A stretch of 52,982 bases of DNA from Gammaproteobacteria bacterium (GTDB taxonomy: Bacteria; Pseudomonadota; Gammaproteobacteria; Steroidobacterales; Woeseiaceae), in the NCBI GenBank assembly GCA_029863705.1, contig JAOTUU010000005.1, positions 1-52,982 of the forward strand, given 5' to 3'. This document shows, piece after piece, positions 27,490 through 52,982 of this stretch (position 1 is the stretch's first letter; the number at the start of each line of letters is the position of its first letter). The position numbers and the translations under genes are program-made. The notes beneath the pieces are model-generated. The model made no database searches and had not been told where the DNA came from. It was given only the letters and a program-made list of their open reading frames with translations.

Positions 27490-27520
27490 GACCGGCATTT
27501 CAGGCAAGCCGTAAGACCGG
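27486..27520 (+). repeat. Direct repeat GTAAGACCGG, two copies
   Basis: The ten bases GTAAGACCGG occur at 27486-27495 (overlapping the stop codon of the small membrane protein) and again at 27511-27520, start-to-start distance 25. The second copy lies just upstream of a TATAAT at 27537-27542. It may be a regulator site for the prenyltransferase/nqr transcript or a chance duplication. Confidence 0.3.
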
Positions 27521-27577
27521 GGGTATTACATTCCCTTATAATTTCGGTATAAGAGAAGAAATTTCAGGGAGCAACAG

Positions 27578-28567: not shown

Positions 28568-28582
28568 TTACAGTAGCGCTCT

Positions 28583-31137: not shown

Positions 31138-31801
31138 CTCTGCCCCATCAGCACGGTCGCGCGACAGCATCGGAAATACGTTGTTTGTCGCCATCGGCGT
31201 AAGCCTCATTTGTTCAGTTCTTGTTGCCAGCGCCGCGGTGATGCTTAAGCCGCGGCAATTGAAGAACGAAGAAGAATTCCGGCAACGGATCATCCTCGAT
31301 GTTGCCGGGCTCTATGAGCCGGGCGCCGACATCGCAACCCTGTATGCAGCAATCGAGCCCCGCATGGTTGACCTCGCATCCGGCGAACAGGCTCCTGTCT
31401 ACCTCGTCATGGATGGCAATGAGATCGAACAGGTCATTTTGCCGGTTGAGGGTGCCGGTCTGTGGGCCATGATGTACGGGTTCCTGGCAGTCGAAAACGA
31501 TGGTCAGACCGCTCGTGGCTTGCGCTTTTACGACCATGGCGAGACGCCCGGCCTGGGTGACCAGATTGATAAACCGGCATGGCGTGAACAATGGCAAGGC
31601 AAGAGGCTCTTCGGCCCTGATGGCGAACCGCAAATCACGATCGTCAAGGGCTACGCACCGGATGACAGCGACTTCGAGATCGACGGTCTTGCCGGAGCCA
31701 CGTTGACGGCCCGCGGCGTTACCAGCCTGGTGCAATACTGGATTGGCGAAAACGGCTACGGCCCGTACTTGCAACAGTTAGACGACAAGGAGTCGCGTTA
31801 G
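31130..31801 (+). CDS. nqrC: Na+-NQR subunit C
   Basis: 223 residues from a GTG that overlaps nqrB by 8 bases, with GGAGG upstream. It has one N-terminal helix (residues 19-39) and a periplasmic FMN domain. The FMN-binding motif [10 protein letters not shown] lies at about residue 190, the first Thr of which would receive FMN from ApbE. The length is slightly below that of Vibrio NqrC (about 256), mostly because of shorter loops. Otherwise normal. Confidence 0.93.
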
Positions 31802-31803
31802 TT

Positions 31804-32463
31804 ATGGGTAACGCACGAAAAATTTTACTCGATCCGATTGTCGACAGTAATCCGGTTACGTTGCAGGTACTCGGTATCTGTTCTGCACTGGCGGTTACGA
31901 CATCTTTGTTGCCCGCGCTGCTCATGTGTGCGGCATTGACAAGCGTTATCGCCCTGTCCACAGCCACGATCAGCAGTATTCGAAACCGCATCCCGAATAA
32001 CATCCGAATTATCGTTCACATGACGATTATTGCGTCGTTCGTCATAGTCGTTGATCAGATACTGCGCGCATACGCATTCGAAACCAGCAAGCAGTTGTCA
32101 GTATTCGTCGGCCTGATCATCACGAACTGCATCGTGCTTGGACGTGCCGAAGCCTTTGCAATGAAGAACGGTGTTGGTCTCAGCTTCCTCGATGGACTCG
32201 GTAACGGTCTCGGCTACAGCGCCATCCTTATCATTGTTGCAACGATACGTGAGCTGTTTGGCGCCGGTACTCTGCTCGGCTACAGCATACTGCCACTGGT
32301 ACCCGATGGTGGCTGGTATCAGGCCAACGGACTGATGCTTCTACCGCCCAGCGCGTTCTTTATTATCGGCCTGTTGATCTGGGCCGTACGCAGCTGGAAG
32401 CGCGAGCAGGCAGAACACCCGGATTACCGCATTCACGAAGTTCACAGAACCGAGGTGCTGTGA
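31804..32463 (+). CDS. nqrD: Na+-NQR subunit D
   Basis: 219 residues with six membrane helices. The two conserved Cys, in LGICSAL near residue 24 and [15 protein letters not shown] near 108, help hold the iron centre shared with NqrE in the membrane. The [23 protein letters not shown] segment is typical of the NqrD/RnfE family. It starts 2 bases after nqrC and its stop overlaps the nqrE start in TGATG. Confidence 0.95.
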
Positions 32464-33071
32464 TGGCGGACTATGTGAATTTGTTTATCCAGGCTGCGTT
32501 CGTCGAAAACCTCGCGCTGGCCTTCTTCCTCGGCATGTGCACATTCCTCGCCATCTCCAAGCGTGTAGAAACCGCAATTGGTCTTGGCCTGGCCGTGGTC
32601 GCGGTGCAGATCATCACGGTACCGGTTAACCATCTCATCTACGAACTACTACTGCGAAAAGGGGCGCTGGCCTGGGCCGGACTTCCCGATGTCGACCTGA
32701 GCTTCCTGGGGCTGGTCAGTTACATCGGCGTGATCGCGGCGCTGGTACAAATTCTCGAGATGACACTGGATCGTTACTTCCCGAAGCTCTATAACGCACT
32801 GGGTATTTTTCTGCCGTTGATCACGGTCAACTGCGCCATTCTCGGCGGCACTTTGTTCATGGTTGAACGCCACTACGACTTTGGCGAGACACTCGTATTC
32901 GGTTTCGGCAGCGGCTTCGGCTGGGCGCTGGCACTTATCGGGCTCGCCGGTATCCGCGAAAAACTCAAGTACAGTGACGTGCCCGTTGGCCTGCAGGGCC
33001 TCGGCATTACCTTCATCATCGCAGGCCTGATGTCTCTCGGCTTCATGGGCTTTTCGGGAATCAGGTTATGA
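32463..33071 (+). CDS. nqrE: Na+-NQR subunit E
   Basis: 202 residues; the ATG at 32463 overlaps the nqrD stop by one base (an in-frame GTG one codon earlier is not needed). Six helices are seen, with [24 protein letters not shown] at the start, and the paired Cys in LGMCTFLA and [12 protein letters not shown] that complement those of NqrD. The RnfA/NqrE family signature [18 protein letters not shown] is present. It overlaps nqrF by 4 bases. Confidence 0.95.
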
Positions 33072-34312
33072 ACTTCGACGCGGCCACAATTTTCGAGGTA
33101 GGGCTGGGCGTTGGCTTATTCACGCTGATAATTCTCATTCTTGTGTTCGTTATCCTTGCCGCACGGTCCAAGCTAGTATCGGACGGCTCCATTACGCTCA
33201 ACATTAACGAAGACAAAAACGTGGAAGTTCCCGTAGGCGGGAAACTGATGGGCGCCCTCGCAGAAGCGGGCATTTTCATACCATCGGCCTGCGGCGGCGG
33301 CGGTACCTGTGGGCAGTGCACGGTCAAGGTACTCGAAGGGGGTGGCGCAATCCTGCCAACCGAGACCTCGTTAATCAGCAAGCGTGAAGCCAAAGAACAC
33401 AGCCGTCTGTCCTGCCAGGTTTCTGTCAAGCAAGACATGAAGATTATCGTGCCGGAGGAGATATTCGGAATTCGAAAACTCGAATGCACGGTCACCTCAA
33501 ACCGAAACGTAGCGAGTTTCATTAAGGAGCTCGTACTGGAACTGCCGGAGGGAGAGGAGCTCGACTTCAAGGCTGGCGGCTACATACAGATTGAATGTCC
33601 GCCGCATGATCTTTCGTTCAAGGACTTCGACATAGACGAAGAATTCCGCGGTGAGTGGGATCGATTCAAGCTGTGGCGTTATGAGTCACATGTTAAGGAA
33701 ACAGTATCGCGCGCCTACTCGATGGCGAGCTTCCCGCTGGAGCGAACGACGATCAAACTGAACGTTCGTATTGCGACGCCGCCACCCGGTGCCGATGACT
33801 CGATACCGCCCGGCATCATGTCATCTTACATTTTCAACCTTAAGCCTGGCGATAAAGCAACAATCTCCGGGCCGTACGGCGAGTTTTTTGCCAGGGAAAC
33901 CGACAACGAAATGGTGTTCATTGGTGGCGGTGCCGGAATGGCGCCCATGCGCGCGCATATTTTCGATCAACTGAAGCGACTGCACTCGAAACGCAAGATG
34001 TCATTCTGGTACGGCGCTAGAAGCTTGAAAGAAATGTTCTATGTGCAGGAGTTCGATGACCTCGCGCGCGACAATGAAAACTTCACCTGGCATATTGGGC
34101 TCTCTGAACCCTTGCCGGAAGACAACTGGACGGGCTACACCGGCTTCATTCACACCGTGCTGTATGAAAAATATCTTGCCGACCATCCAACACCGGAAGA
34201 TTGTGAATACTACCTTTGTGGCCCGCCGATGATGAACAGCGCCGTGATCAAGATGCTCGATGATCTCGGCGTTACCAGTGACCATATTCTGCTGGACGAT
34301 TTCGGGGGCTAG
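33068..34312 (+). CDS. nqrF: Na+-NQR subunit F (NADH dehydrogenase flavoprotein)
   Basis: 414 residues. An N-terminal membrane helix (residues 7-30) anchors a [2Fe-2S] ferredoxin domain with [10 protein letters not shown] and a fourth Cys in SRLSCQV. The FAD domain follows with [11 protein letters not shown], and the NADH domain with [15 protein letters not shown] and YYLCGPPMM. NqrF takes electrons from NADH and passes them to the membrane subunits. It ends directly before apbE, with no intergenic base. Confidence 0.96.
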
Positions 34313-36320: not shown

Positions 36321-37544
36321 TTAGGTGAGCTGCGCCTCGCTCGGTTCCGGGCTCGTTTCCGCATCTTTCCACGGCGGTAGTATCTTCAGGAGCAGCGCCA
36401 GGATCAGGAACGGCAGAACGAGCAGCCCAATGGCGACCAGCAGGCCCTCCTGTCCTCCGAATTCCAGCTTATAGGCGGTCAATCCCCGGAGGCTCTTGGA
36501 GAAGAGCTGTCCGCCGATCACCACGTTCCATCGCGTGCTGAAGATGCCCACCTGCACGAGCACCGCGGCGATGAAATAGATCATCCGCTTCATCTCATTC
36601 GGCAACTCGGAGAAACGCGCCGCCGCCAGGAACACGATCGGCACGATCGTGCCGAGCAGGATCTGGACGATGGTCAGGCTGAGGAAGAGCTTGCCGAAGA
36701 TAAGCTGCTCCAGGATCTCGATCGATTCTTCGGACTCGTAGAGCCGGTGGATGAAATCCAGGGCCTCGAGAGAGAGGTCGATGATCAACGCATAAAACAG
36801 GAAGGAGGCGAGCGCGTTCAGGCAGCTCATGTCCAGCTCTTTGCGCCGCAGCAGGGTCGTAACGTAGTAGATCAACAGCACCATCGATATCCCGGAGACG
36901 ATGGCAGAGAACAAGAATACGATGGGCATGAGGACACTGCTCCACCACGGATTGGCCTTTACCGAACCAAAGATGAAGCCCACATAACCGTGCAGCAGGA
37001 ACGCAGACGGTATGCCGACGATCGTGATGAACTGGACCGCCTTTTTGTCGAAGGCGACCGCGGCGGGCGAAACGTCCCGCGAGCCCAGCGAGATGAGCCA
37101 GTGAACGAGCTTCATCACGGGCTTGTCATTCTTTCTCCACCTCACCAGGTCGGCGCGGTAGTCGAACCAGATCTCCATGAGCAGTACCACCATCAGGTAC
37201 CAGGCGTACACGAAGCCGAACATCGCCATTGCGGAGGCCGAGTTCGGGGTGAGGAAGATCTCGAAAGCGCGCTCGGGGTGTCCCAGATGTGCCTGCAGCG
37301 GCATGGGTGCCACGATCAGGAAGGCGAGCGCCGTGAGCAGCGCGAGACGGTAAGTGGGTTGGAGCGCCTTGACATTGAACACCTTTTCGAGTGAGGCCAG
37401 GATGAACGCTCCCGCCACCAGGCCCGTGAGGTACGGATAGATGACAATCAGGATGCTCCAATGGAGCTCGACTTCGTTCGGATAGATGAAGCCCGAAACC
37501 TGGGCCAGGGCGGCTTCCAATTGAGCGAGATGTTCAGGATCCAT
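36321..37544 (-). CDS. NrfD/PsrC-like quinone-interacting membrane subunit
   Basis: 407 residues with eight to nine membrane helices, of the NrfD/PsrC family that exchanges electrons with quinone on behalf of periplasmic iron-sulfur partners. LHWSILIVIYPYLTGLVAGAFILASL forms the first helix, and the PMPLQAHLGHPERAFEIFLTPNSASAMAMFGF loop is the family hallmark. It is the last of three abutting genes with no base between them: octaheme cytochrome, four-cluster ferredoxin, NrfD. Together they look like a quinone:periplasmic cytochrome oxidoreductase of Nrf/Qrc type, lacking a molybdopterin subunit. Direction of electron flow is unknown. Confidence 0.9.
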   Translation of the reverse strand: MDPEHLAQLEAALAQVSGFIYPNEVELHWSILIVIYPYLTGLVAGAFILASLEKVFNVKALQPTYRLALLTALAFLIVAPMPLQAHLGHPERAFEIFLTPNSASAMAMFGFVYAWYLMVVLLMEIWFDYRADLVRWRKNDKPVMKLVHWLISLGSRDVSPAAVAFDKKAVQFITIVGIPSAFLLHGYVGFIFGSVKANPWWSSVLMPIVFLFSAIVSGISMVLLIYYVTTLLRRKELDMSCLNALASFLFYALIIDLSLEALDFIHRLYESEESIEILEQLIFGKLFLSLTIVQILLGTIVPIVFLAAARFSELPNEMKRMIYFIAAVLVQVGIFSTRWNVVIGGQLFSKSLRGLTAYKLEFGGQEGLLVAIGLLVLPFLILALLLKILPPWKDAETSPEPSEAQLT

Positions 37545-38330
37545 TTAGCGTACCTCGCCATCCAGGGCCGTGTAATAGACCTTGGGATCGGTGTTCATAT
37601 GCGGCTTCAGAACCTCGAGGTGGCTCATCCGCAGCATTCGATTGAGAGGCGTACTTCTGTCCCCGATCTCTCCAAAGACTCGTGCCTGGGTCGGGCATAC
37701 CTCTACGCAGGCCGGCAGCAGACCCTTGGTGATCCGGTGGTAACAGAACGTACACTTGTTGGCGGTGTGCGTACGTGGATCCAGGAAGCGGGCGCCGTAG
37801 GGACACGCCTGGATGCAGTAGCGGCAGCCGATGCAGTAGTCCTCGTCCACCAGCACCACTCCGTCCTGGCTCTTGAAAGTGGCTCCCACCGGGCAGACCT
37901 GGACGCAGGGCGGATTGTCGCAGTGGTTACACAGCTTGGGTACGAAGAAGGTCCGCAGGATCTCCTTTCCAGCCGCGACCGGAGGAAAGGTTTCATCCGC
38001 AACCGGGGGAAAGCCGTCCATGCCGCCGTTGGGGCTGTCCACCTGGACATCTCCGTCGGTGTAGACGATGTAGCGTTCCACCCAGGTTCTGAAGTAGAAG
38101 GGCTCGTCCGGTACATCGTTCTCCAGCTTACAAGCCTGCACGCACTTGCCGCAGCCGATGCACTCCTCGACCCGAATCCCCATCGCGTAGTAGTGCTCGG
38201 TCGGGTCATACTCATCGCCGCCGTCGGCCGCGAGCAGCTTCACCGGGCCGACCAACCCAAGAAGCATGGTGGCGGGAGGGAAATTCAACAACCCGGCCAG
38301 GAATTCTCTTCTCTCGTAGGTCTTCGGCAT
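37545..38330 (-). CDS. Tat-exported four-cluster ferredoxin (NrfC/PsrB/DsrO-like)
   Basis: 261 residues. The N-terminus has a Tat motif ERREFLAG (residues 6-13) and a hydrophobic run ending in LLAADG. Four cluster-binding groups follow: CIGCGKCVQAC, CNHCDNPPCVQVC, CIGCRYCIQACPYGAR and CTFCYHR with CVEVCPTQARVFG. This is the electron-transfer subunit that bridges an NrfD-type membrane protein and a periplasmic redox partner. It starts immediately after the octaheme cytochrome stop and ends immediately before the NrfD start. Confidence 0.92.
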   Translation of the reverse strand: MPKTYERREFLAGLLNFPPATMLLGLVGPVKLLAADGGDEYDPTEHYYAMGIRVEECIGCGKCVQACKLENDVPDEPFYFRTWVERYIVYTDGDVQVDSPNGGMDGFPPVADETFPPVAAGKEILRTFFVPKLCNHCDNPPCVQVCPVGATFKSQDGVVLVDEDYCIGCRYCIQACPYGARFLDPRTHTANKCTFCYHRITKGLLPACVEVCPTQARVFGEIGDRSTPLNRMLRMSHLEVLKPHMNTDPKVYYTALDGEVR

Positions 38331-39170
38331 CTATCTGGCCTCCGGTGAGTGTTGGTAGTGGCACTGCCAGCAAACGAAGGTCCCACCATGGGTGACCAGG
38401 TCGATGCGCGGAATCTCGTACACGGTGAGATCGACGCCACGAATCTCCTCCGGAGCTTCGGCGCCCTTGGCATGGCAAGTGCCGCAGAACGCCCGCTCGA
38501 AGGGCTTCTTCGGCACATGCGCGCGCGGCTGCACTTTGTGTTCCGGCTGCACTTCGTGGCAGGCCTCGCAGTCGAGGGGAGCATGCGGGGAAACAGCCTT
38601 GCTTCGGGCGATCGTGTTATGGCACGCAGAGCACTCTTGAATACTCTCCGGTGGCGTCGGGTCGTGCGCGTCGTGGCAGCCGGTGCAGGCCCGTACCGGG
38701 TTGTGGCGATCCTCGATGACCTGCGGGAACCCTGTCGGCCGGGACGCCAGGTAGCTGTGGCAAACGAGGCAGGGTTCCCTGCCCGTCGGCAGCTCCGGTT
38801 TAAGTCCCATGGGATTGGACGTATGGTCGCTAGCCGGCCCGTGACACGTTTCGCAGCTGACGGTTCTGTGGAAGGATCTGTTCTTCGTCTCTACCTTGTC
38901 CGGGTGGCACATCGCACACTGTTGCCAGCCTGCGTAGTGCGGCTCCAGCTCCGCGTTGGCGGCGACCGCCGCTCCCCTGTAGTGACCCAGGTCCCCGAAA
39001 GTTTCGGGTACGAACTTTTGTCGCATCAGGAACATGCCAACACCGACGGCAAGGAAGATGACGCCGAGCTGAATAACCTGGGTCGGCACCTTCCTGCGGC
39101 TCGAAGCCACGCGCCGTTCTCGGATCCGTGTTCGCAAAGCGACGATCTGTTCGACCAGGGCTCTAAACAT
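38331..39170 (-). CDS. Membrane-anchored octaheme cytochrome c
   Basis: 279 residues. A basic N-terminus and one helix (about residues 32-50, VIQLGVIFLAVGVGMFLM) anchor it; the rest is periplasmic. Eight CXXCH sites are present in order: CAMCH, CETCH, CLVCH, CTGCH, CSACH, CEACH, CGTCH and CWQCH. The heme spacing resembles QrcA/NrfB-like or CymA-independent donors rather than octaheme nitrite or hydroxylamine enzymes, and no catalytic CXXCK is present. It heads the three-gene module with the ferredoxin and NrfD subunits. Upstream lies a stretch of about 330 bases with no gene, then an frdB pseudogene. Confidence 0.88.
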   Translation of the reverse strand: MFRALVEQIVALRTRIRERRVASSRRKVPTQVIQLGVIFLAVGVGMFLMRQKFVPETFGDLGHYRGAAVAANAELEPHYAGWQQCAMCHPDKVETKNRSFHRTVSCETCHGPASDHTSNPMGLKPELPTGREPCLVCHSYLASRPTGFPQVIEDRHNPVRACTGCHDAHDPTPPESIQECSACHNTIARSKAVSPHAPLDCEACHEVQPEHKVQPRAHVPKKPFERAFCGTCHAKGAEAPEEIRGVDLTVYEIPRIDLVTHGGTFVCWQCHYQHSPEAR

Positions 39171-42489: not shown

Positions 42490-43236
42490 CTAGCTGGCCA
42501 TCCCGGACGAAAAAGCTTTTCTGCGCAGGTAGGCATACACCTCAAGGAGAGGTAATTCCTTCGGGCATATGTCGTGGCAGGCCATCATACCGATGCAGCC
42601 GAAAACGCCGTGTTCGTTCGATATGAGCTCAAACCAGTCCGAGTCGCCCCTGGTGTCACGTGGGTCCATCGCGAATCGTGCCATCCGGTTCAGGCCCGCG
42701 GGACCAGCGAACTCGCCATTAATGTTCGCAACACCGCAGGATGCGACGCAGCATCCGCATTCGATGCAACGATCGCTGTCGTAGATTTTCTGCGCCAGCT
42801 TATCGTCCATTCGATCTTCCTTCGCACCCGGATCGAACGCCTCTTGTGCATGAATCCAGGCCTCGGATTTTTCTGCCATTTCGCGAAACCAAACTCCGGT
42901 GTCGACTGACAAATCACCAACGAGTTTGAAAACCGGTAGCGGATGCAGTCGGATCTTCTCTGGCAAGTCGGAGGTCTGTGTACGGCAGCCCAACGCAGGC
43001 CGACCGTTCGCCATCATGCCGCAGGAACCGCAAATCGCGGAGCGGCATGCAAAGTCGAACTGCAAACTCGGATCCTGCTTCTCACGAATTTCGTTGAGCG
43101 CAATGAAAAGCGACATGTACTTCGTTTCTTCGAGCTCGAAACTCTGCATGTGAGGCTTTGACTCCGGATCCATCGGGTTGTAACGAAATATTTCGAAGCT
43201 CAGGAGCCGGCCAGTTTTCGTGCTTTCAAAACTCAT
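42490..43236 (-). CDS. frdB: Fumarate reductase / succinate dehydrogenase iron-sulfur subunit
   Basis: 248 residues; ATG at 43236 overlaps the frdA stop by 4 bases. The [2Fe-2S] ligands are Cys64, Cys69, Cys72 and Cys84 (CRSAICGSCGM and LGC). The C-terminal domain has CIECGCCVASC for [4Fe-4S] and CIGMMACHDICPK for the [3Fe-4S] and [4Fe-4S] centres. The sequence resembles the menaquinol-type FrdB of epsilonproteobacteria rather than the aerobic SdhB of gammaproteobacteria. It is the last gene of the coupled frdCAB set; a decayed relative lies at 39.5 kb. Confidence 0.93.
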   Translation of the reverse strand: MSFESTKTGRLLSFEIFRYNPMDPESKPHMQSFELEETKYMSLFIALNEIREKQDPSLQFDFACRSAICGSCGMMANGRPALGCRTQTSDLPEKIRLHPLPVFKLVGDLSVDTGVWFREMAEKSEAWIHAQEAFDPGAKEDRMDDKLAQKIYDSDRCIECGCCVASCGVANINGEFAGPAGLNRMARFAMDPRDTRGDSDWFELISNEHGVFGCIGMMACHDICPKELPLLEVYAYLRRKAFSSGMAS

Positions 43237-45176
43237 TGTTCCTCCGCCCATTTGCCCCAGCGAATCCGACTGCCCTGAGCTTCTTCGGTTTCCAGCTTGC
43301 CGTGTTTTTCCTGCGCTTGCGCGACGTCTGCATTGTAGGTCTCGATGCTCTGCTCCATATCAATATGCTTCGCGTTGCCATAGCCTCGATGGCCCGGGGG
43401 TAAATCGATCAGGCCGACTGGTTCGTAGCTCAGTTCGGGTTCACTCGCTCCTTGCGGCCATCGCGCCAGGGTACGATTGAGCCAGTTCGCGTCATCACGT
43501 TCCGGGTAATCAATCCGGCAATGTGCACCGCGACTTTCGGTGCGCGCCAGCGCGCCCTTCGCTGTTACGAGCGCCAGCCGCAGCATGCCTTTCAGCCGCA
43601 ATGCGTAGGACAGCTCCGGATTCATGCCCGGTACCTTCGAACGCAGCACAGCGCGATCGCATTGCGACAGCAAATCCTGCAGTCGAACGACAGCTCCGGC
43701 CAGGTCGTCTTCCGTCCTGAAGATGCCCACATCCGCAATCATCGTTTCCGCCATTTCGTCGCGTATTTCGTAAACACTTGGCCCCGGTCCGCTGCGCTCA
43801 AGCCAACTTGATGCGTGCACTTCGGCTCGACGCACTGCGTCCATTGCAACCGTGGTCGCTACATCCAGGCTCGATCGCGACGCAAGTCGCGAGGCGCTTT
43901 TACCAACGAGTCTTCCGGTAACAATCGTCTCTGCAAGGCTGTTACCGCCCAGTCGATTGAATCCGTGCATGTCCCAGCACGCAGACTCGCCCGCCGCAAA
44001 CAGGCCTGCCATGTTGTAAGCCTCGCCGTCCTTGTTGACACGCACACCGCCCATTGAATAATGCTGCGTCGGTCGAACAGGAATCAGTTCCTTCGCGCAA
44101 TTGAGGCCGGCAAAGTCGCGACATATGTCCCAGACCTCCCGTAGCTTGGTGGTCAGATGCTTCTCACCAAGATGCCGGACATCGAGCCACAGATGCGGCC
44201 CATATTCCGTCTCGACACCTTTGCCATCACGCATGCGGCGTGCCATGTGGCGAGACACGACATCCCGGCTGGCAAGTTCCTGCTTTTCGGGTTCGGCCTC
44301 AACCATGAATCGGTCCAGGTTCTTGTCGAGTAAGTACCCGCCGTCGCCTCGGCAACCTTCCGTCACGAGAATGCCGCTTGGCGAGAGCGCAGTCGGATGA
44401 AACTGCACAGCTTCCATATTGCCTAGCGGCACAACGCCGGTGTCGAGCGCAATCGCAGCACCCGTGCCTTCGTTGATCGTCGCGTTGGTCGTGTATTGGC
44501 CGTAAATACGCCCGTGTCCGCCCGTGGCGATGACGGTTGACTTGGCCAATACCGCCGAGTGTTCGCCGGTTCGCAGGCACCGAGAAACAGCCCCCCAACA
44601 GCGACCACCGTCGTGGATCAGAGCGACTGCCTCGGCGCGATCGCGGACGGTCACACCCAGCCGAACGGCCTCACTGTCCACGGCATACAGCGCCGCGTGC
44701 CCGGTACCAGCACCGGCATAACATGCACGCCACTTGGCCGTACCGCCAAAGTCGCGATGCATGATCAAGCCGTCGTTTTCTTCCTTCTCTTCGATCTCGA
44801 CGAGTTCGCCTTTGACGAAGTAGAGGTTCTTGCCGGCCTTAACTCGGGTCCATGGCACGCCAAAATGTGCGAGTTCGCGCACGGCGACCGGCGCCTCCTC
44901 GGCGAAAATCTGCGCAACCTCCTGATCCGCACCCCAGTCCGATCCTTTGACCGTATCCAGGTAGTGCAACGTGGGATTGTCCCCCTCTGCTTTGACGCAA
45001 TTGCCAAGGGATGCCTGCATACCTCCCTGCGCAGCACAGCTGTGACTACGACGTGGCGGCACCACCGATAACATCAGTACTTCGTGACCGGCTGCTGCCG
45101 CTTCGATTGCACAGCGTTCACCGGCCAGGCCACCGCCGATTACGAGCACGTCAGTACTTACGATTTGCGCGCTCAT
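43233..45176 (-). CDS. frdA: Fumarate reductase / succinate dehydrogenase flavoprotein
   Basis: 647 residues. GGGLAGERCAIEAA is the Rossmann FAD motif and HSCAAQGG carries His45, the covalent FAD attachment site. The catalytic region has DMHGFNRLGGNSLAETIVTG and the GGVRVNKDGEAYNMAGLFAAGE substrate section. There is no Tat signal, so it is cytoplasmic. It overlaps frdC upstream and frdB downstream by 4 bases each (ATGA), showing the trio is translated together. With the diheme FrdC the complex can run as menaquinol:fumarate reductase or in the succinate-oxidising direction; sequence cannot decide which. Confidence 0.95.
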   Translation of the reverse strand: MSAQIVSTDVLVIGGGLAGERCAIEAAAAGHEVLMLSVVPPRRSHSCAAQGGMQASLGNCVKAEGDNPTLHYLDTVKGSDWGADQEVAQIFAEEAPVAVRELAHFGVPWTRVKAGKNLYFVKGELVEIEEKEENDGLIMHRDFGGTAKWRACYAGAGTGHAALYAVDSEAVRLGVTVRDRAEAVALIHDGGRCWGAVSRCLRTGEHSAVLAKSTVIATGGHGRIYGQYTTNATINEGTGAAIALDTGVVPLGNMEAVQFHPTALSPSGILVTEGCRGDGGYLLDKNLDRFMVEAEPEKQELASRDVVSRHMARRMRDGKGVETEYGPHLWLDVRHLGEKHLTTKLREVWDICRDFAGLNCAKELIPVRPTQHYSMGGVRVNKDGEAYNMAGLFAAGESACWDMHGFNRLGGNSLAETIVTGRLVGKSASRLASRSSLDVATTVAMDAVRRAEVHASSWLERSGPGPSVYEIRDEMAETMIADVGIFRTEDDLAGAVVRLQDLLSQCDRAVLRSKVPGMNPELSYALRLKGMLRLALVTAKGALARTESRGAHCRIDYPERDDANWLNRTLARWPQGASEPELSYEPVGLIDLPPGHRGYGNAKHIDMEQSIETYNADVAQAQEKHGKLETEEAQGSRIRWGKWAEEQ

Positions 45177-45895
45177 GTGGCTGCCCCCGCAAGCAGAAAC
45201 TCAAATGGTGGCGGCAGCACGCCCGCGAGAACCAGCAGCACAACGACGCCCAGGCCCAGGAAGAACCACAGCAACAGGTGTTCCAGAATCCGCAGCGTTT
45301 TTCGCGTTAGCAAGGTACCGGCGCCCCACTTGATAGCGAGCCGGTAAAGGCCGACGCCAGCGTGAAATTCGACGCAAACAAGCAATATGGCGTACGGCAA
45401 CCAGAGCCCGGCACGAACTCTGGCGATGCTCGTGATCGCCTCAATACCGGGACGCTCTCCGAACAGCGGCGTCAGCGTGTCCATCGCCAACAGGATCAGG
45501 TGAAAGCTGCCGAGAACCAGAATGAGCATGCCGGTACGCACTTGCCAGATCCAGAGCAGCGATTCGACGTGCGGATCGAAACCACTCGACGCCTTGAGGT
45601 CGCGACCGAGCTTGACCATCTGGCGACGCTGGGCCAGCTGTGCCGGGATCTTGCGCCCGGCAAGCACCGCGTGGACGAGAAACAGTATAAGAATAGCCAA
45701 CACCGTTGGCTGCGCGATGTAATAGTCCTCGAGCATGCCCGCCAACCAGTTGAATCCTCGCTCACCGGTGAGAATGGAGCCTACAAGAACCATGTGTCCC
45801 CACATAAAGAGCGCGAGCACGAGCCCGCTGCCGCCGCTCAGGAGTTCGTAGGTGAGTTGTCGAGATGCCTCAACGGATCGTGCGAGGGTCTTCAT
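45173..45895 (-). CDS. frdC: Diheme cytochrome b membrane anchor of fumarate reductase (type B)
   Basis: 240 residues, five membrane helices, the single-anchor type-B layout of Wolinella-like fumarate reductase. Four membrane His residues could ligate two b hemes: LFMWGHMVLVG, FLVHAVLAGR, GSFHLILLAMD and VEFHAGVGLYR. The protein passes electrons between quinone and FrdB. Its ATG overlaps the stop of the upstream NapC-like cytochrome by 4 bases, an unusual coupling of a fumarate reductase to a periplasmic cytochrome gene. Confidence 0.92.
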   Translation of the reverse strand: MKTLARSVEASRQLTYELLSGGSGLVLALFMWGHMVLVGSILTGERGFNWLAGMLEDYYIAQPTVLAILILFLVHAVLAGRKIPAQLAQRRQMVKLGRDLKASSGFDPHVESLLWIWQVRTGMLILVLGSFHLILLAMDTLTPLFGERPGIEAITSIARVRAGLWLPYAILLVCVEFHAGVGLYRLAIKWGAGTLLTRKTLRILEHLLLWFFLGLGVVVLLVLAGVLPPPFEFLLAGAAT

Positions 45896-47298
45896 TCAAG
45901 GTCCAGTACCGTCATTATGTGTGGGTTCTCTTCCTCTTCTGCGAGCAACACATGACATGTGTCGCAGTCACGTGAGATTTCCTTACGATCGGCCGTGCGC
46001 ATCTTTTTGCTATGGCAACGCTCACAGCCGGGCGATTGTTCGTGACCTATATGGTTCGGGTAGGTATCCCACCAGACCTGCATCTGCGGAAATACGTTGA
46101 CCGAATAAATATCACCAAGCGCATTTGCCGCAGCGCTGATCGCATCCGCATTCTCTGCGGCGATCTCCGGGTAATTCTCCGCGTAGAACTTCATGAGCTC
46201 TTCATCAATGACGACGCGCGCCTCTTCATGCGACGGGTACTCCGCGTCGACGATGCGCAGCCCTTCACGTTTTACAAATGGCAGGGAGCGGTCAATCAGG
46301 CCTTCGCGGATGACCCGGTCAACCTCACTGGCCGCAGGCTGGTAAATATGGCTGGGCCGATTGTGGCAATCGACGCAATCCATGGTGCGCCAGACACCAC
46401 CTTCTTCCGGCGCCCTTTTGTCGGCATAGTTGGTAACCGTGCCGTCAATACCTGTGTATTCAACCTCATAAATGTCTTCGCGCGTTTCGTCGGACCGGTA
46501 ACGAATCTCCATGCCCGGGTCGACATGCCAGTGAATGCCATGTGATACGGCTCCGTCAGTGCCGCCGACTTTGAGCAAGAGGGCGGTTGTCAACTCAGTG
46601 TTGGCTTCGTCATCTTTGTAATGTTTTATAACTTTGAGCTTTTCGCCAACGAACTTGGTCGGCCAGTGACACTGTTCGCACGTATCGCGAGCCGGGCGCA
46701 AATCGTGTAGCGGTGTCGGAACCGGGCGCGGGTACAGGTCAAGTGCGACAGACACCAACTGCCAGGCGCCGTCCAGTTTCGATTTCACGAACCAGTCAGC
46801 TCCCGGGCCGATATGGCAATCGGCACATGCGACCCGTGAGTGCGGAGACCGTGCATGGGCAGTGTGCTCCGGCTCCATCACCGAATGACACGCCATGCCG
46901 CAGAATTCGACGGATTCCATCACCTCCACACCTTTGTAGGTCGCACTGGCAAGAATGATAATATTGACCATCGTTGCGGCGACGAAAACCAGAAACCAGT
47001 GGCGTGTATGGGACAAGTTCAGGTCGAAGACGGGGAATAGCGGCATCCCTTCACCGCCGGGCCGTTTGCGCATCTTGCGGCGGTATAACACGGCACCGAC
47101 CGGAATCAGAATCAAGCCGACTGCAAAGATCATCGGCAGAATCAGGAAGGTCAGAATACCCAGGTACGGTCCACCCTCGAAGCCGAACTGCTGCATCGTA
47201 AACAAGCTTGCAATGAGCACCAGGCTTGCGATAGCCAGCGCGGTACCGATCAGGCTGATCGCATTGTGCGTGATGGATGCAAAAAAACGTCTAAACAT
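45892..47298 (-). CDS. NapC/NirT-family multiheme cytochrome, ImcH-like
   Basis: 468 residues. Three N-terminal membrane helices (about residues 12-35, 43-68 and 98-120) precede a periplasmic multiheme part. The first site is CGMACH, a CX3CH form followed by SVMEPE as in NapC/NrfH-like quinol dehydrogenases; then five CXXCH sites follow: CADCH, CEQCH, CVDCH, CERCH and CDTCH. Length, the three helices and the heme count resemble ImcH, the inner-membrane quinol oxidase used for high-potential extracellular acceptors in Geobacter. It is coupled by ATGA to frdC. Upstream lie 142 bases without a gene, then the 11-heme protein. Whether it is an ImcH orthologue needs phylogeny. Confidence 0.82.
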   Translation of the reverse strand: MFRRFFASITHNAISLIGTALAIASLVLIASLFTMQQFGFEGGPYLGILTFLILPMIFAVGLILIPVGAVLYRRKMRKRPGGEGMPLFPVFDLNLSHTRHWFLVFVAATMVNIIILASATYKGVEVMESVEFCGMACHSVMEPEHTAHARSPHSRVACADCHIGPGADWFVKSKLDGAWQLVSVALDLYPRPVPTPLHDLRPARDTCEQCHWPTKFVGEKLKVIKHYKDDEANTELTTALLLKVGGTDGAVSHGIHWHVDPGMEIRYRSDETREDIYEVEYTGIDGTVTNYADKRAPEEGGVWRTMDCVDCHNRPSHIYQPAASEVDRVIREGLIDRSLPFVKREGLRIVDAEYPSHEEARVVIDEELMKFYAENYPEIAAENADAISAAANALGDIYSVNVFPQMQVWWDTYPNHIGHEQSPGCERCHSKKMRTADRKEISRDCDTCHVLLAEEEENPHIMTVLDLE

Positions 47299-47440: not shown

Positions 47441-49339
47441 TCAATGATCCGGATGGTCCAACACCTGCTCGTCGCGGCCAACTGCCTGCTGCTCGGTCGA
47501 GTCCTCGTGGATAACCTCACCGCGTTCTTCTGCCCGCGAGAAGGGCGGCTTGCCCGTCAGCCAGGCCGTATCCATGGGATACACCGCTGGATCGAAGATG
47601 ACAAAGTAGAAGTGCCAGATGAGGATCGCCAGCGTGGCCAGAATCGCCTCGAGGAAATGCAGGACGGTGGCAGCCCCGGGCACCCAGCCAGGGAGCCATG
47701 TCAGTGTGAAGTTCTCGAACCACAGCACCAATCCCGTGATCGCGGTGATAGCAGTACCCCATAGCGCAGCCCAGTATTCGATCTTCTCCACGTAACCGAT
47801 GCGCACCGGAGCCGGCGGCTCGGGTCGGCGGCCGATGTTGTAGCCTATCCTGTGGGATAACTCTTTGAAGTCGGCAAGACCAGGGAGGAATGCAGCGATC
47901 TGGTATCGAGCTCGGGCACTGATGGCGATATGGGCAAAGTGGAAGAGGCAGGCGCCGATCAGACCAACGGCAGCTATACGATGAATCAGGCCGCGGAGTT
48001 CGCCGCCGTCAAGCTGCACCAGCTCTGCCCACCAGCTCTCGGGGTACTTCAACGCAAAGCCACTGAATACCAGCGCCATGAAGCTCACAGCAGCAACTAC
48101 GTGGGTGATGCGAAATGGCATCGACATGCGTTCTTTGATCGCGCAGTGCTCGGGAGGCCTGCGCAGCCGCGGCGCTGGATAACGCGTCTTCTTCACGAGG
48201 TCGAGCAGGTTGTGGAGCAACATACCGAGGACGGTGACCCAGATCAGCGGAATATAGATGCGCCGGATCCAGTACGCGACGACGTTCGGTTCCTGGTCGG
48301 CCAACATGTGCACAGGGCCGATGGCGAATTGACTGCCTGCTCCGACGTGGCACTGGCCGCAGGTGTCCGCCAGGTTGTCCGGATGGATGTGGGATCCCGG
48401 GTCACTGGACGGCAGGATGTTGTGCACACCGTGGCAGCTCGCACAATTCGCAACTTTCTGCACACCACCACGGGCAGCAAGGCCATGGAAGCTGTCCTCG
48501 TAGGAGGGGACCTTCTCAGCGGCCAGACCGTATTTTTCGCTCAGGCGCAAATCCGAGTGGCAGGGACCGCAGACGCGGATCGGAATGTTGGTCGCCGATA
48601 CCGGCGAGCCCTCCGCGCTCACGGCCAGAATGCGGTGCTCGCCATGACAATCCGTGCACACGGGCGAGTCACCGACGCCGCTGGCGGCGGCCAGGCCATG
48701 AATACTCTGCTCGAACTGCGCCGTGATTTCAGCATGGCAGGAAGCGCATGTGCCTGGAACGTTAGAACGGTGGATCGAAGAGTCAGGGTCTGCGGCCGGT
48801 AACGGCGAGTGGGCCGTATGGCAATCGCTGCAACCGGCGCCATGTTCGCCACTGACCACCGCGGCGGCGTGCACACTGGCGGTGTATGCCTCAATGGGGC
48901 GAATCGTATGGACGCCCGGCGGTGCCGGCTGTCCGCTGCCATGGCAGACCCCGCAGGTCTCTCCCTGACGGCTGGCGTGCACTGGAGAGGATGGCTCGCT
49001 CGTCAGGGTCATGGCATGTATTTCGCCATGACAACCTGAGCATGAGGGCAAATCCATACCAGGGATGCGCTGCACGCCCTCCGGACCGTGCACGCTCACG
49101 ATCTGTTCATCGGCGACCTCGGCATGACAGCCCGCACAATCGACCGGATCGAGCCCGCGCCTGTGCCGACGCTCTCCGCCGACATGGCAATCCAGGCATT
49201 CAGTCGCGCCGTGCGGAGTGCTCTCAAAGAGTCCCACATCGACTTCGTGGCAATCGTTACACGGGTGCTCCTCCTCGGCGTAGGCGGTCTGTAGGACGAA
49301 CAGCAGGCAGGTGACCAGATAGGCGAGGAGTTTGCGCAT
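47441..49339 (-). CDS. 11-heme cytochrome c / cytochrome b fusion (CbcL-like)
   Basis: 632 residues. A signal peptide (ending AYA-EEEH) is followed by about 340 residues with 11 CXXCH sites: CNDCH, CLDCH, CAGCH, CSGCH, CGVCH, CSDCH, CASCH, CTDCH, CGPCH, CASCH and CGQCH. The remaining part has five membrane helices with His residues (LIHRIAAVG, FHFAHIAI, ATVLHFLEA, IWHFYF) of the b561/Ni-hydrogenase cytochrome b type. Geobacter CbcL has the same c-then-b layout with nine hemes. Such fusions take electrons from quinol through b hemes to a periplasmic heme wire. It lies 34 bases after the 19-heme paralogue and matches its last two heme sites and membrane part. Confidence 0.88.
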   Translation of the reverse strand: MRKLLAYLVTCLLFVLQTAYAEEEHPCNDCHEVDVGLFESTPHGATECLDCHVGGERRHRRGLDPVDCAGCHAEVADEQIVSVHGPEGVQRIPGMDLPSCSGCHGEIHAMTLTSEPSSPVHASRQGETCGVCHGSGQPAPPGVHTIRPIEAYTASVHAAAVVSGEHGAGCSDCHTAHSPLPAADPDSSIHRSNVPGTCASCHAEITAQFEQSIHGLAAASGVGDSPVCTDCHGEHRILAVSAEGSPVSATNIPIRVCGPCHSDLRLSEKYGLAAEKVPSYEDSFHGLAARGGVQKVANCASCHGVHNILPSSDPGSHIHPDNLADTCGQCHVGAGSQFAIGPVHMLADQEPNVVAYWIRRIYIPLIWVTVLGMLLHNLLDLVKKTRYPAPRLRRPPEHCAIKERMSMPFRITHVVAAVSFMALVFSGFALKYPESWWAELVQLDGGELRGLIHRIAAVGLIGACLFHFAHIAISARARYQIAAFLPGLADFKELSHRIGYNIGRRPEPPAPVRIGYVEKIEYWAALWGTAITAITGLVLWFENFTLTWLPGWVPGAATVLHFLEAILATLAILIWHFYFVIFDPAVYPMDTAWLTGKPPFSRAEERGEVIHEDSTEQQAVGRDEQVLDHPDH

Positions 49340-49373: not shown

Positions 49374-52211
49374 CTAGCGGTATCCGAATAGCATTGTGTA
49401 GATGATCAGGCTAAGAAGTACTAATCCGAAGGTGAGCGCCATGAAACCGAATATCCTCACGCCGCGCTCTTTCGACTCTGGGAAGGCTTTCACAAGGTGA
49501 TTCTCCAACTCACCGGATTCCACCATCGCTTCGTACTCGCCGGGCTTGTCGAATTTCAGCTCGTCCACGGACACCCGCCCACTGAATATCACGGGATCCA
49601 TGGGGAACTTGTCGGGCCGGAAGTGCGTGTTGAAGAAGTGAATCGTAAATATGAAACCGACTGCGAGCAGCGCTTCGTCACTGTGGATGATCGTCGCCAC
49701 GTTGACGGCCCAGCCGGGAACGATGTATGTGAACAATTCCGGGAACCACAGGATCAACCCTGTGCTGCCGATTATCGCCACACCCCAGGCCACTGCGAAG
49801 TAGTCGAACTTCTCCCAATAGGTGTAACGGGCGTAATTGGGGCGAGCACCGAGTCCGAAGAACCACTTGATGGACTGGACGAACTCCTTGAAGTCGCGGC
49901 CGTTGAAAATGATGGAGTCCGGCCCGGTAATGATTTGCAACCAGGTATGCCCCGTGGCCTTCTTGTGACGAAGAACATCAATTACGTGCGCAATGAAGAC
50001 GCCGATCAACACGACCGCACCCATGCGATGCAGGAATCCCATACTATCGAAACCGCCAAGTATCCGGGATGTCACCTGTGCCCAGGACATATACGAGAAC
50101 TTCAATGCCATTCCCGTCAATGCCAGCGTGAAGAAGCTGAGCATCATTACGACATGCATGGTGCGCTGGTAGCGGCTAAAACGACGGTAGAACATCTGGT
50201 TTTTGTTGCGCGACATAGCCTTATGCGCCTTCCATTCGTCGCGGTTCAGCAACAATCGAGTAACCCAGGCAAAGGTGTGCAGCAGGGCGAAAGTCAGGGT
50301 ACCTACCAGCAGCGCGGTCATGCCCCAGAAGGACCAGAACAGCCACGGGTAGCGGTCGCGATCATGGTGGGTTGCATGGGTCAGGTAGCCTGCGAAACGC
50401 CGGTGTGACCCCTCGTGACACTGGCCGCAGGTCTCAACGACATTGTCCCTGCTAAGCGCCGAGCCTGGATCGGTCGGGGGAAGAATACCGTGCGTACCAT
50501 GGCAGTCGTAACACTTGGCGACGCCCTCCCCACCCAGGCGCGAGACCTTGCCGTGAAATGTGTCGAAGAAGGTCTCAGTCTGATCTTCGTGACAGCGGCC
50601 GCACTGCTCCATCATCCGCGTGCGGAATCCCAATTGCTCAACGCGCGAAATCGTGTGCGAGGCATGACAGTCCTCGCAAGTGGGATACTCTTTGTCCGCA
50701 TCCGGGTCTTCAGACCAGTGGACACTCGTGCGGAACGTTTCCTCTATGCCGTGGTGGCAGGTACCGCAGGTGCCAGCGATATTCTGTGGGCTCACCCTGG
50801 ACTCCGGATCCCCGGGAGGACGTTCGGAGTGCGCGCCGTGACAATCGGCGCAGGTTGCCGTCACGATGAGACCGGCGTCGATCAAGGCTCGACCATGGAC
50901 GCTATCTTCATAGCTGCCCACGATGTCATCCACTTTGGCGTGAATCCGTGTCGCCGCCTGTTCGCCGATGCGATGACACTGTCCGCAAAGCCTGGGGACG
51001 TTACGCGGATAGCTAGGCGACCCTGGAAATTCATTATCGAGCGTGGCGTGTTTAGCATGACAGTCCTGGCAAGTCGGTGCGTCCGGATCGTCTTGCGCAT
51101 GCAGGGTTCCGTGTGTACTGCTCTGATACTCGGTGACCTGTTCAGCATGGCAGATACTGCAATCCACCTCTGACTGCACCGTTGCACAGGCACGCTCCTG
51201 GGCAACCGTCACATCAGTGTGGCATTGCGCACAGGCGGTATCTGCGTGCTCAGAGCTTTCATAAACCTGTTCATCGACGTACAGGCTGATGATCTCGCCG
51301 GCTCGCGTCATCGTCAGCTCGGGCTGCGCGTGGCAGGTCAGGCAATCCTTGTCGGCCAGACCGTCAGGGTAGAAAACGTTGCGGATCTCGTGCGGTGCAT
51401 GGCAATCGACACAAGTAGGAATCTTGCCCGGATCTTCGGTCCACAACTGGCCTTCGATCACCTTACGGTGCACCTGTTCGATTTGCCCGTGGCACGTCGT
51501 ACAGGTTGCAGCAACATTGTCTGCGTGAATGGTCGATCGTCGATCGGTGTGCGGACGAATGTCGTGGGCCGTATGACAGGAAGTGCAGACGGCCGTGACA
51601 GTGAGGCCCTGACGGAACAGGCCCTCACCGTGAATACTCATCGAGTAATGCTCGAGGATGTTTTCCTGCGATATCTCGTGAGTTCGCGATACGGGAGATC
51701 CCTCTCGGTGGCAACTTCCACAGAGCAGCGGCACGTTCATCACCGCCGTCGGCGAGTCGTGGTCCGAGGCCGGCAGGATATCGTGCTTGCCGTGACAGTC
51801 GGCGCAGACCGGGGCCATTGGATCACCGTCTCTTGCGGCTACACCATGCAGACTGCGTTTGTGAGCATTGGCCTCAGGCCTGTGGCAGCCGCTGCAATCG
51901 ACAAGCTCCAGGTCCTTGCGTGTAGAGTGCCGGCGCTTGGTCGGGTCCAGATCGCTGTGGCAGTCGACGCACGCCATATCGGAGTGAGCGGATGCTGCGT
52001 AGTCCTTTTCGTCCACGAAGACCGATATGTCTTCGCCCGCAAAGGTTCCCGTGAGCTCTTCGTCGGAGTGACACTCGAGGCATTTTTCATTGTCCTGAGC
52101 AGGTGCAGGAGTAGCTGCCAGGCAAAAAATCGCGGCTGTTAAGGCAAGCCAACACCTTCCATGACCGGCCCAGACGGGTCGGCGGTTCGGGGAACGCTCG
52201 CGCGTGCGCAT
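49374..52211 (-). CDS. 19-heme cytochrome c / cytochrome b fusion with internal duplication
   Basis: 945 residues. A signal peptide (ending APAQ-DNEK) leads into about 600 residues with 19 CXXCH sites, then six membrane helices of the b561/Ni-hydrogenase cytochrome b type. The periplasmic part is a duplication: hemes 1-8 and hemes 9-16 form two units, each opening with C-L-x-CH followed by an AGExIS-[VL][FY]-VDE segment and repeating the same spacing. Hemes 17-19 (CGRCH, CYDCH, CGQCH) form a tail shared with the 11-heme neighbour. It should move electrons between quinone and a long periplasmic heme chain. It leads the run toward the 11-heme gene, the ImcH-like gene and frdCAB. Confidence 0.9.
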   Translation of the reverse strand: MRTRERSPNRRPVWAGHGRCWLALTAAIFCLAATPAPAQDNEKCLECHSDEELTGTFAGEDISVFVDEKDYAASAHSDMACVDCHSDLDPTKRRHSTRKDLELVDCSGCHRPEANAHKRSLHGVAARDGDPMAPVCADCHGKHDILPASDHDSPTAVMNVPLLCGSCHREGSPVSRTHEISQENILEHYSMSIHGEGLFRQGLTVTAVCTSCHTAHDIRPHTDRRSTIHADNVAATCTTCHGQIEQVHRKVIEGQLWTEDPGKIPTCVDCHAPHEIRNVFYPDGLADKDCLTCHAQPELTMTRAGEIISLYVDEQVYESSEHADTACAQCHTDVTVAQERACATVQSEVDCSICHAEQVTEYQSSTHGTLHAQDDPDAPTCQDCHAKHATLDNEFPGSPSYPRNVPRLCGQCHRIGEQAATRIHAKVDDIVGSYEDSVHGRALIDAGLIVTATCADCHGAHSERPPGDPESRVSPQNIAGTCGTCHHGIEETFRTSVHWSEDPDADKEYPTCEDCHASHTISRVEQLGFRTRMMEQCGRCHEDQTETFFDTFHGKVSRLGGEGVAKCYDCHGTHGILPPTDPGSALSRDNVVETCGQCHEGSHRRFAGYLTHATHHDRDRYPWLFWSFWGMTALLVGTLTFALLHTFAWVTRLLLNRDEWKAHKAMSRNKNQMFYRRFSRYQRTMHVVMMLSFFTLALTGMALKFSYMSWAQVTSRILGGFDSMGFLHRMGAVVLIGVFIAHVIDVLRHKKATGHTWLQIITGPDSIIFNGRDFKEFVQSIKWFFGLGARPNYARYTYWEKFDYFAVAWGVAIIGSTGLILWFPELFTYIVPGWAVNVATIIHSDEALLAVGFIFTIHFFNTHFRPDKFPMDPVIFSGRVSVDELKFDKPGEYEAMVESGELENHLVKAFPESKERGVRIFGFMALTFGLVLLSLIIYTMLFGYR

Positions 52212-52412
52212 CGGTAATCCAGAAAATAACCAAAAGAAGGCAAATCTATTGTGCGTAATATTTCAATAGAGATGAACTTGCTATCCGGGTTTTCCGAAGG
52301 CGCGTAGCCCATGAGACCGGCACTGAGAGACCGCGTGGCGAATAGGTAGTATCCGGCATAAGAAAGGAATGCTGCTTTTGCTACAAATAAGCCTGCGTTA
52401 CAGGTGTCTGTC

Positions 52413-52982
52413 ATGTCACGAATTAGATTCATGTCCGGGCTTATCTTGCTTTTCTCGTCTTTGGTGTTTTCAGTCAGCACCGAGCCAGCCGAGAATGGCT
52501 GCATCAACTGTCACCGGCAGCCTGATTACTATGCCCAGAATCCCAAACTCCACGAGTACTATCAGCAGTATCTGGGATCACCACACGAGCAGGCTGGCGT
52601 GACTTGTGATGCTTGTCATGGAGGAAATGCGCGCGCCAATTCGGCGCAGAAAGCGCACGTCGGCGTTTTGCCGATGAACAACAAAAACAGCGCGGTACAT
52701 TACCAAAAGCAGCCGGAAACCTGCGGACAATGCCACGGCGACAAGCGCCGACAATTCGTGAAGAGTAAGCACTATGCCGCCCTGATGGATCAACGCGCGG
52801 CGCCAACCTGCACGACCTGTCACCCGGCGATGAGTCGCCGGCCTGAGCTACGGAATATCGTATTGAACGCCTGCCGGAACTGTCATGGCGAGGGTAACAG
52901 CGAAAATCTGCCACTAATCGCGGACCAGGCTGAAGGCGTATTCAGCCAGTTGAATATCGCTGGCGGGTTATTGGGCTGGACG
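52413..52982 (+). CDS. Multiheme periplasmic cytochrome c (partial, runs off the window)
   Basis: The plus strand is open from the ATG at 52413 to the window edge, 190 residues so far. AGGTG lies 6 bases upstream. A signal peptide (hydrophobic run ending VFSVST) is followed by five heme sites: CINCH, CDACH, CGQCH, CTTCH and CRNCH. The spacing in the first 150 residues resembles small tetraheme or pentaheme cytochromes such as the c554/NrfB-like group, and the last motif begins a section (CRNCHGEGNS) like a monoheme cytochrome c domain, so a fusion is possible. It is divergent from the 19-heme gene across 201 bases, which should hold both promoters; I see no clear motif there. Confidence 0.85.
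   Translation, partial: MSRIRFMSGLILLFSSLVFSVSTEPAENGCINCHRQPDYYAQNPKLHEYYQQYLGSPHEQAGVTCDACHGGNARANSAQKAHVGVLPMNNKNSAVHYQKQPETCGQCHGDKRRQFVKSKHYAALMDQRAAPTCTTCHPAMSRRPELRNIVLNACRNCHGEGNSENLPLIADQAEGVFSQLNIAGGLLGWT

Follow-up and report, generated by a model that had tools for sequence, protein, structure and literature searches.

How does a cytochrome anchored in the inner membrane come to carry nineteen c-type hemes, and what would it do with them? The question is raised by a gene at positions 49374..52211 on the minus strand of the 52982-base stretch analysed here (the window), which is one whole contig (C202) of an assembly comprising 402 contigs and 3.68 Mb. The encoded protein combines a periplasmic c-type part, in which two similar octaheme units are followed by a three-heme tail (8+8+3), with a C-terminal cytochrome b domain. 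It belongs with the CbcL/MtoC/MtrH cytochromes, among which it is placed by layout and fold, and it is probably an inner-membrane quinol:cytochrome c oxidoreductase of this kind that oxidises menaquinol toward extracellular electron transfer (EET). The gene and its parts are as follows (aa, amino acid residues).

49374..52211, minus strand: 19-heme c/b fusion cytochrome of the CbcL/MtoC/MtrH family by layout and fold; 945 aa, ATG start
52098..52154, minus strand: likely signal peptide, hydrophobic, aa 20-38, predicted from the hydropathy scan
51354..52091, minus strand: octaheme unit 1, hemes 1-8, aa 41-286, from spacing, unit alignment and tree
50613..51353, minus strand: octaheme unit 2, hemes 9-16, aa 287-533, from spacing, unit alignment and tree
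50376..50612, minus strand: three-heme tail, hemes 17-19, aa 534-612, from motifs and alignment to shorter relatives
49377..50375, minus strand: six-helix FdnI-like cytochrome b domain with a putative quinone site, aa 613-945, from Ni_hydr_CYTB, Foldseek 1kqf_C and seven invariant His

The initial annotation had read this open reading frame (ORF) as a nineteen-heme c/b fusion with six b-type helices after the heme part, and both points hold. A motif count found exactly 19 CxxCH sites and no CX3CH, CX4CH or CxxCK in the 945 residues, and a hydropathy scan placed one hydrophobic segment near the N-terminus and six hydrophobic helices toward the C-terminus, the latter seen as long helices in the structure model. 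The c part matches class III/c7 cytochrome families in Pfam, and the b part matches Ni_hydr_CYTB (PF01292, 31.0 bits, cut-off 30.1). In NCBIfam the protein stays under cut-off for formate dehydrogenase gamma (25 bits, cut-off 116) and, over residues 416-601, for the DmsE-type decaheme family TIGR03508 (101 bits, cut-off 192).

Structure models were predicted with AlphaFold2 and contain no hemes. The full-length model has a mean predicted local distance difference test score (pLDDT) of 78.1 and a predicted template modelling score (pTM) of 0.51, so it does not fix the relative placing of the units, and the 'longer wire' of the initial annotation stays a candidate reading. A Foldseek search of the whole model against the PDB gave no row at E <= 0.001; its best row was FdnI (1kqf_C, prob 1.00, TMt 0.74, E 4.2e-3), the other rows shown had E of 3 or more, and the search is informative for the b domain only. 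Hemes 9-19 modelled alone reached pLDDT 88.3 and pTM 0.82. A profile of hemes 9-19 matched four solved chains at E <= 0.001 (28pb_A, 6i5b_A, NrfB 2ozy_A and 3ov0_A), the first of which, named only 'Cytochrome c', aligned over profile positions 3-136 with E 2.1e-10; a single-sequence search against solved structures gave NrfB at E 1.7e-7 and 28pb_A at E 1.2e-4. Solved relatives exist for parts of the protein, and none found spans the whole.

The 8+8+3 division can be read directly from the distances between consecutive hemes. These are 37, 25, 30, 28, 45, 28 and 30 residues in hemes 1-8, with 23 to heme 9, and 37, 24, 30, 28, 45, 28 and 30 in hemes 9-16, with 25 to heme 17. Aligned over their whole length, the two units are identical at 104 of 239 positions, or at 80 of 215 (37%) when the C, C and H of the heme sites are masked, and the opening, middle and closing segments that the initial annotation had described as shared are all found as pairs in this alignment. 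The global score of 505 compares with 86 +/- 23 and a maximum of 160 in 500 shuffles that kept the heme positions. That self-comparison, on which the annotation had staked its reading of hemes 1-8 and 9-16, is far above shuffles even with the hemes masked. A reading of the three-heme tail as the opening of a further octaheme unit was provisionally rejected, as its spacing of 25, 30, 28 is that of hemes 2-5 and lacks the 37-residue opening of a unit.

CxxCH is common to all multiheme proteins, and the likeness of the units might in principle reflect only a common heme pattern, through convergence or composition. This is contradicted by local alignments in which the heme residues were masked and 300 shuffles were made per comparison. 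Unit 1 against unit 2 scored 285 (shuffle maximum 51), whereas unit 1 stayed within the shuffle range against three windows of the MtrA of its own genome (25-37), against MtrC (30) and against an ImcH-like protein (37). One 9-heme and one 11-heme A-type relative gave 73 each, and four windows of an 11-heme fusion encoded next to the gene gave 99-148. Five windows of the 19-heme protein itself shifted by 1-3 hemes scored 182-269, as expected from their sharing most of unit 2, and the register is therefore set by the spacing strings and by the alignment over the whole length of the units. Chance or composition is ruled out by the masked shuffles, and a mere common pattern can practically be dismissed; the likeness of the two units is specific and goes beyond general multiheme likeness.

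The doubled layout is widespread. A search for related loci found at least 574 relatives among the candidates; the best 80 were kept, and all counts on 80 loci refer to these. All 80 are metagenome-assembled genome (MAG) or uncultured records, and single taxon labels may therefore be wrong. When homologues with an 8+8+3-like heme count were looked for, as the initial annotation had suggested, 18 to 23 strict CxxCH motifs were found in 80 of 80: 19 in 57, 21 in 13, 23 in nine and 18 in one, with the second 19-motif protein of locus L039, which is of the type of the 11-heme neighbour, left out of the 57. The spacing strings place the extra two or four hemes of the 21- and 23-heme forms within the initial part of unit 1. 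The record titles cover about ten phyla, including Woeseiaceae and other Gammaproteobacteria, Acidobacteriota, Gemmatimonadota, Zixibacteria, Bacteroidota, Chlorobi/Ignavibacteriales, Hydrogenedentes, Latescibacterota, one planctomycete and two deltaproteobacteria; the closest named matches among those listed are MAGs labelled Woeseiaceae or Gammaproteobacteria. Four loci (L066, L073, L085 and L089) have an unfused or split form, with the 19-heme part on one ORF and the b domain on its neighbour.

An alignment of 54 sequences, made up of the window protein and 53 of the best 80 relatives, shows the C, C and H of all 19 sites as invariant columns; the row with 18 strict motifs (L026) has one site not spaced as CxxCH. 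Outside the motifs, 21 His are invariant in the c part, enough for bis-His ligation of 19 hemes, and seven in the b part (aa 645-863).

Among 40 genomes near the window, its own included, 16 have some match and five the full-length form (its own and the same-genus G006, G012, G016 and G022). Among 369 genomes of the class, again with its own, 23 match at E <= 1e-60, of which two are full length (its own and G205) and 21 have matches that begin only at query residue >=406; motifs counted in five of these 21 were nine in four and eight in one (G120). The phylum of G417, the host of a locus titled Gemmatimonadota (L044), was represented by 121 genomes and gave 13 matches at E <= 1e-150; eight of these span most of the length, and five begin only at residue >=286. 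Four of the latter carry 11 motifs, spaced 38, 24-25, 30, 28, 44, 28, 30, 25, 30, 28, whereas in the fifth 10 strict motifs were counted.

Aligned to hemes 9-19, all three 11-heme A-type relatives used match all 11 sites and all four 9-heme relatives used match sites 9, 10, 12 and 14-19, at 34-38% identity. The lengths thus form a series of 9 (6+3), 11 (8+3), 19 (8+8+3), 21 and 23 hemes, which we infer to be a historical order as well. In this order the periplasmic part would have grown from one octaheme unit with its three-heme tail to two units with the tail. A unique, recent doubling is ruled out by the relatives and by the unit tree: the 18-23 motifs of all 80 best relatives make the doubling ancient.

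The tandem duplication proposed in the initial annotation stands as regards the octaheme doubling itself; on whether it took place within the gene, two unit trees, both unrooted and with one long B row, differ. The first comprised 78 units: unit 1 (28), unit 2 (28), the units of the neighbour (B8, 17) and A-type units (A8, 5). Each set formed a single group, with support of 100/99 for unit 1 (28/28), 100/97 for unit 2 (28/28), 100/93 for B8 and 100/100 for A8, and the doubling is therefore older than the spread of the family. Unit 1 stood with B8 (80/64), a position that would suit the joining of unit 1 from a paralogous 8+3 cytochrome by gene fusion rather than its copying from unit 2; the alternatives of units 1 and 2 together (approximately unbiased (AU) test, p 0.295) and of unit 1 with A8 (p 0.253) were not rejected either. 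In the second tree, which added four 8+3 units to the first set, units 1 and 2 split from all others (96/86), which speaks against such a fusion; a grouping of unit 2 with the four 8+3 units, which would again suit it, was not rejected (AU p 0.48), nor was one of units 1, 2 and the four together (AU p 0.19). The mean identity of unit 1 is higher to unit 2 (37.5%) than to B8 (33.2%) or A8 (29.6%), and the masked score of 285 between the units stands against at most 148 for the windows of the neighbour. Gene fusion is on balance unlikely, and an old doubling of the octaheme unit inside the gene, as read from these alignments and trees, is favoured though not proven.

The family to which the protein is assigned was surveyed in 2018 and reported to have 3 to 23 motifs and up to 1034 residues (PMC6295460), a range that includes the 19 motifs found here. 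The protein has the six C-terminal transmembrane helices of this family, a HydC/FdnI-like b domain (PF01292 and 1kqf_C, as above) and, where the family has three conserved His as possible b-heme ligands, seven invariant His as candidate ligands. With CbcL of Geobacter sulfurreducens it shares an N-terminal multiheme c part and a C-terminal six-helix b domain. CbcL has nine c hemes, all bis-His, and ten conserved His (PMC9129911), and in both proteins there are more conserved His than hemes, which fits bis-His ligation. Unlike CbcL, the protein has 19 c hemes rather than nine, and two octaheme units and a tail instead of one heme part, so that it falls outside a narrow definition of CbcL by nine c hemes. 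The statement of the initial annotation that known fusions have about nine hemes is correct for CbcL itself (PMC9129911) and not for the family, which reaches 23 (PMC6295460).

MtoC and MtrH, of Fe(II) oxidisers and Rhodoferax, have the same layout and occur with mtrAB/mtoAB genes (PMC6295460). The proteins of this layout found in the class, presumed to be MtoC or MtrH, differ in having nine motifs (four of the five counted) or eight (one), and the four aligned are 34-38% identical. The 8+3 cytochromes of four loci of the Gemmatimonadota sample (L112, L113, L115 and L116) have a spacing almost that of hemes 9-19 and 43-47% identity over query residues 286-942 or 429-939; they lack unit 1. Beside two of these 8+3 genes lie 17-motif cytochromes with a partly repeated spacing string (L115:4311-6317 and L116:514-2583). 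FdnI, the cytochrome b of Escherichia coli formate dehydrogenase N, has a similar membrane fold, no c-type hemes and another partner. The MtrA/DmsE decahemes resemble the protein in the TIGR03508 match below cut-off and in a weak fold likeness; MtrA, in contrast, is part of an outer-membrane conduit, and unit 1 does not score above shuffles against the MtrA of its own genome.

The 19-heme gene probably heads an operon, to judge from a run of six same-strand genes separated by 34, 142, -4, -4 and -19 bp. The other features of its surroundings are the following.

47441..49339, minus strand: 11-heme c/cytochrome b fusion, a paralogue with tail spacing 29, 42, 28, located 34 bp downstream of the 19-heme gene
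45892..47298, minus strand: ImcH-like cytochrome with three N-terminal helices, a NapC/NrfH-like part, five CxxCH and one CX3CH
45173..45895, minus strand: FrdC, fumarate reductase cytochrome b subunit; Sdh_cyt over cut-off, NF010072 126 bits, below cut-off 187
43233..45176, minus strand: FrdA, fumarate reductase flavoprotein; NF006383 941 bits, cut-off 663
42490..43251, minus strand: FrdB, fumarate reductase iron-sulfur subunit; NF010071 367 bits, cut-off 264
52404..52982, plus strand: divergent 5-heme c-type cytochrome, cut by the contig end; from ORF, motif count and Pfam

The ImcH-like protein matches PF03264 (27.2 bits, cut-off 24.1), and its six sites, the CX3CH included, compare with the 6-10 motifs by which ImcH is defined, along with three N-terminal helices of which the third, with the first hemes, is NapC/NirT-like. 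Its first heme site is the CX3CH (CGMACH), and a CX3CH is present in all 31 ORFs of the ImcH-like cluster. Among the best 80 loci, a neighbour-type fusion occurs in at least 38 (30 with 11 motifs, seven with 13, one with 19) and an ImcH-like ORF in at least 31, both lower bounds because many loci end at contig ends; a looser count of 46 for the fusion takes in 9-motif proteins without a b domain. The neighbour-type fusion with 19 motifs, a minus-strand ORF of L039, has a quite different spacing and may mark a separate second route to 19 hemes. Elsewhere on the contig, genes for NrfD, a ferredoxin-type protein and an 8-motif cytochrome follow in a row (36321-39170, minus strand), and such sets have been proposed as quinol:acceptor complexes in Melioribacter (PMC9386147). 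The region 16637-34312 holds HypF, a NiFe hydrogenase large subunit (25558-27276), NqrA (28583-29929) and an NqrF-like reductase (33068-34312).

An outer-membrane conduit that could receive electrons is encoded in the same genome, where contig C54 carries mtrC (TIGR03507, 478 bits), mtrA (TIGR03508, 286 bits) and mtrB (TIGR03509, 390 bits), all over cut-off; mtrABC has been reported in sediment Woeseiaceae (PMC12175321). In related loci these genes lie close to the 19-heme gene. One 16 kb stretch (L104) holds FrdA, FrdC (by position), an ImcH-like gene, the 11-heme and 19-heme genes, a 2-motif ORF, mtrC, mtrA and mtrB; L017, probably the same contig as L111, keeps this order for the genes it holds, mtrC, mtrA and mtrB among them, with the 11-heme gene on the other strand. 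A single contig (L103) has two 10-motif mtrC-type ORFs (one of them scanned), mtrA and mtrB about 6 kb from the 19-heme gene, and a Zixibacteria locus (L074) has an MtrB gene (TIGR03509, 259 bits, cut-off 240) together with a truncated decaheme ORF at a distance of about 7 kb from the 19-heme gene.

Other conduit candidates are encoded near the gene. DmsE/GSU2203-type decahemes occur in 10 of the best 80 loci, and six of the 10 were scanned by NCBIfam; of the five scanned outside the Woeseia group, two (L070 and L072) are over the DmsE cut-off. Those two, from Zixibacteria (L070:13113-13928 and L072:4650-5639), score 323 and 332 bits as GSU2203-type decahemes (cut-off 325) and may be outer-membrane conduits. 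In mainly Gemmatimonadota-titled loci of the 80, a barrel-like ORF (12 loci) occurs with a 9-16-motif ORF (14 loci), a combination that is a candidate for an unrecognised porin-cytochrome conduit; a scan of one such barrel-like ORF gave neither a Pfam nor an NCBIfam match. In Gemmatimonadota-titled loci such as L044, L051 and L057, the 19-heme gene is followed by a barrel-like ORF, recognised by eye, and then by the 9-16-motif cytochrome.

In the proposed mechanism, menaquinol would be oxidised at the FdnI-like b domain, and electrons would pass from the b hemes to hemes 19-17 beside the membrane, then through unit 2 and unit 1, and leave at the distal end for an acceptor in the periplasm or the outer membrane. 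The acceptor in this lineage would most likely be MtrCAB, reached directly or through a small c-type cytochrome, and the 11-heme fusion and the ImcH-like protein may serve as alternative quinol oxidases, as CbcL and ImcH of other bacteria are reported to oxidise menaquinol at low and high potential, respectively (PMC6295460, PMC12307469). We infer the heme loading, direction, partner, contact and geometry of the protein in this scheme. Several results weigh against it. The mtrCAB genes of the own assembly are on another contig (C54) than the 19-heme gene. MtrB (PF11854) is over cut-off in only four of 40 hosts outside the Woeseia group, L074 included (40 of the 71 such loci were tested), and MtrCAB as a general partner of the 19-heme protein was rejected on this count. 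Genes for diheme c-type cytochromes (Pfam in L017) lie between the 19-heme gene and mtrC in L017, L103 and L104, which suggests a shuttle, not direct contact. The fold search with hemes 9-19 gave no match at E <= 0.001, with weak likeness to hydroxylamine oxidoreductase (6t5e, E 5.7e-3, TMq 0.35) and MtrA (6r2q_A, E 0.13, TMt 0.42); a phmmer search with the isolated b domain gave no solved structure at E <= 1; and the family placing comes from layout and fold, not from BLAST (E < 0.01) to named CbcL, MtoC and MtrH.

CbcL, MtrH and MtoC have been proposed as quinol oxidases and/or quinone reductases in EET (PMC6295460), and the protein might work in the opposite direction, taking electrons from outside and reducing quinone, as proposed for MtoC of Fe(II) oxidisers. 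The same survey reports no feature that separates quinol-oxidising from quinone-reducing members, and a locus of the same class (L107, 8 strict motifs) has a 10-motif gene and a 692-residue MtrB-sized gene, an arrangement resembling a Mto cluster by motif and size. The presence of FrdCAB and the ImcH-like gene in the same run argues against this direction, ImcH homologues being reported only from Fe(III) reducers (PMC6295460), and we consider it quite unlikely for the 19-heme protein. It is likewise improbable that soluble periplasmic acceptors, or else other membrane complexes, are the main recipients of its electrons and that the mtr genes are an accident of lineage. The scarcity of MtrB in other hosts would agree with this, as would the transfer of electrons from CbcL to the soluble triheme PpcA (PMC9129911); the decahemes and barrel-like ORFs described above offer other conduit candidates nearby and speak against it. 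The oxidation of menaquinol toward EET remains the likely function.

The family, with its long members counted in 2018, is already known (PMC6295460). In the portions covered of the literature on CbcL/MtoC/MtrH, Woeseiaceae, porin-cytochromes, periplasm-spanning proteins and Zixibacteria (PMC6295460, PMC12175321, PMC8805035, PMC12977616, PMC4245776, PMC9386147, PMC12307469, PMC9129911 and PMC7399161), no description was found of the 8+8+3 layout, its age or the length ladder, nor of a characterised 19-heme family member, although the supplementary tables of PMC6295460, which lie outside that scope, may list some. The literature found on nineteen-heme proteins concerns others, namely Gmet_0600, listed as outer membrane or surface (PMC10989804, PMC10470525), and archaeal S-layer fusions (PMC7082337, PMC10874420).

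CbcL-type proteins are a gate between the quinone pool and EET. A doubled heme content at near-constant spacing across MAGs labelled with many phyla suggests selection on extra length. It is very doubtful that the 19-23 c hemes form one continuous inner-membrane-anchored chain across most of the periplasm, touching MtrA or another outer-membrane conduit directly and replacing soluble shuttles; if they did, the ladder of 9, 11, 19, 21 and 23 hemes would represent length adjustment of a membrane-tethered wire. The natural length series offers a means to test the bridging of the periplasm by membrane-tethered heme chains, and, in a sediment bacterium of Woeseiaceae type, fumarate reductase is joined in a single gene run by an ImcH-like protein and two CbcL-like ones.

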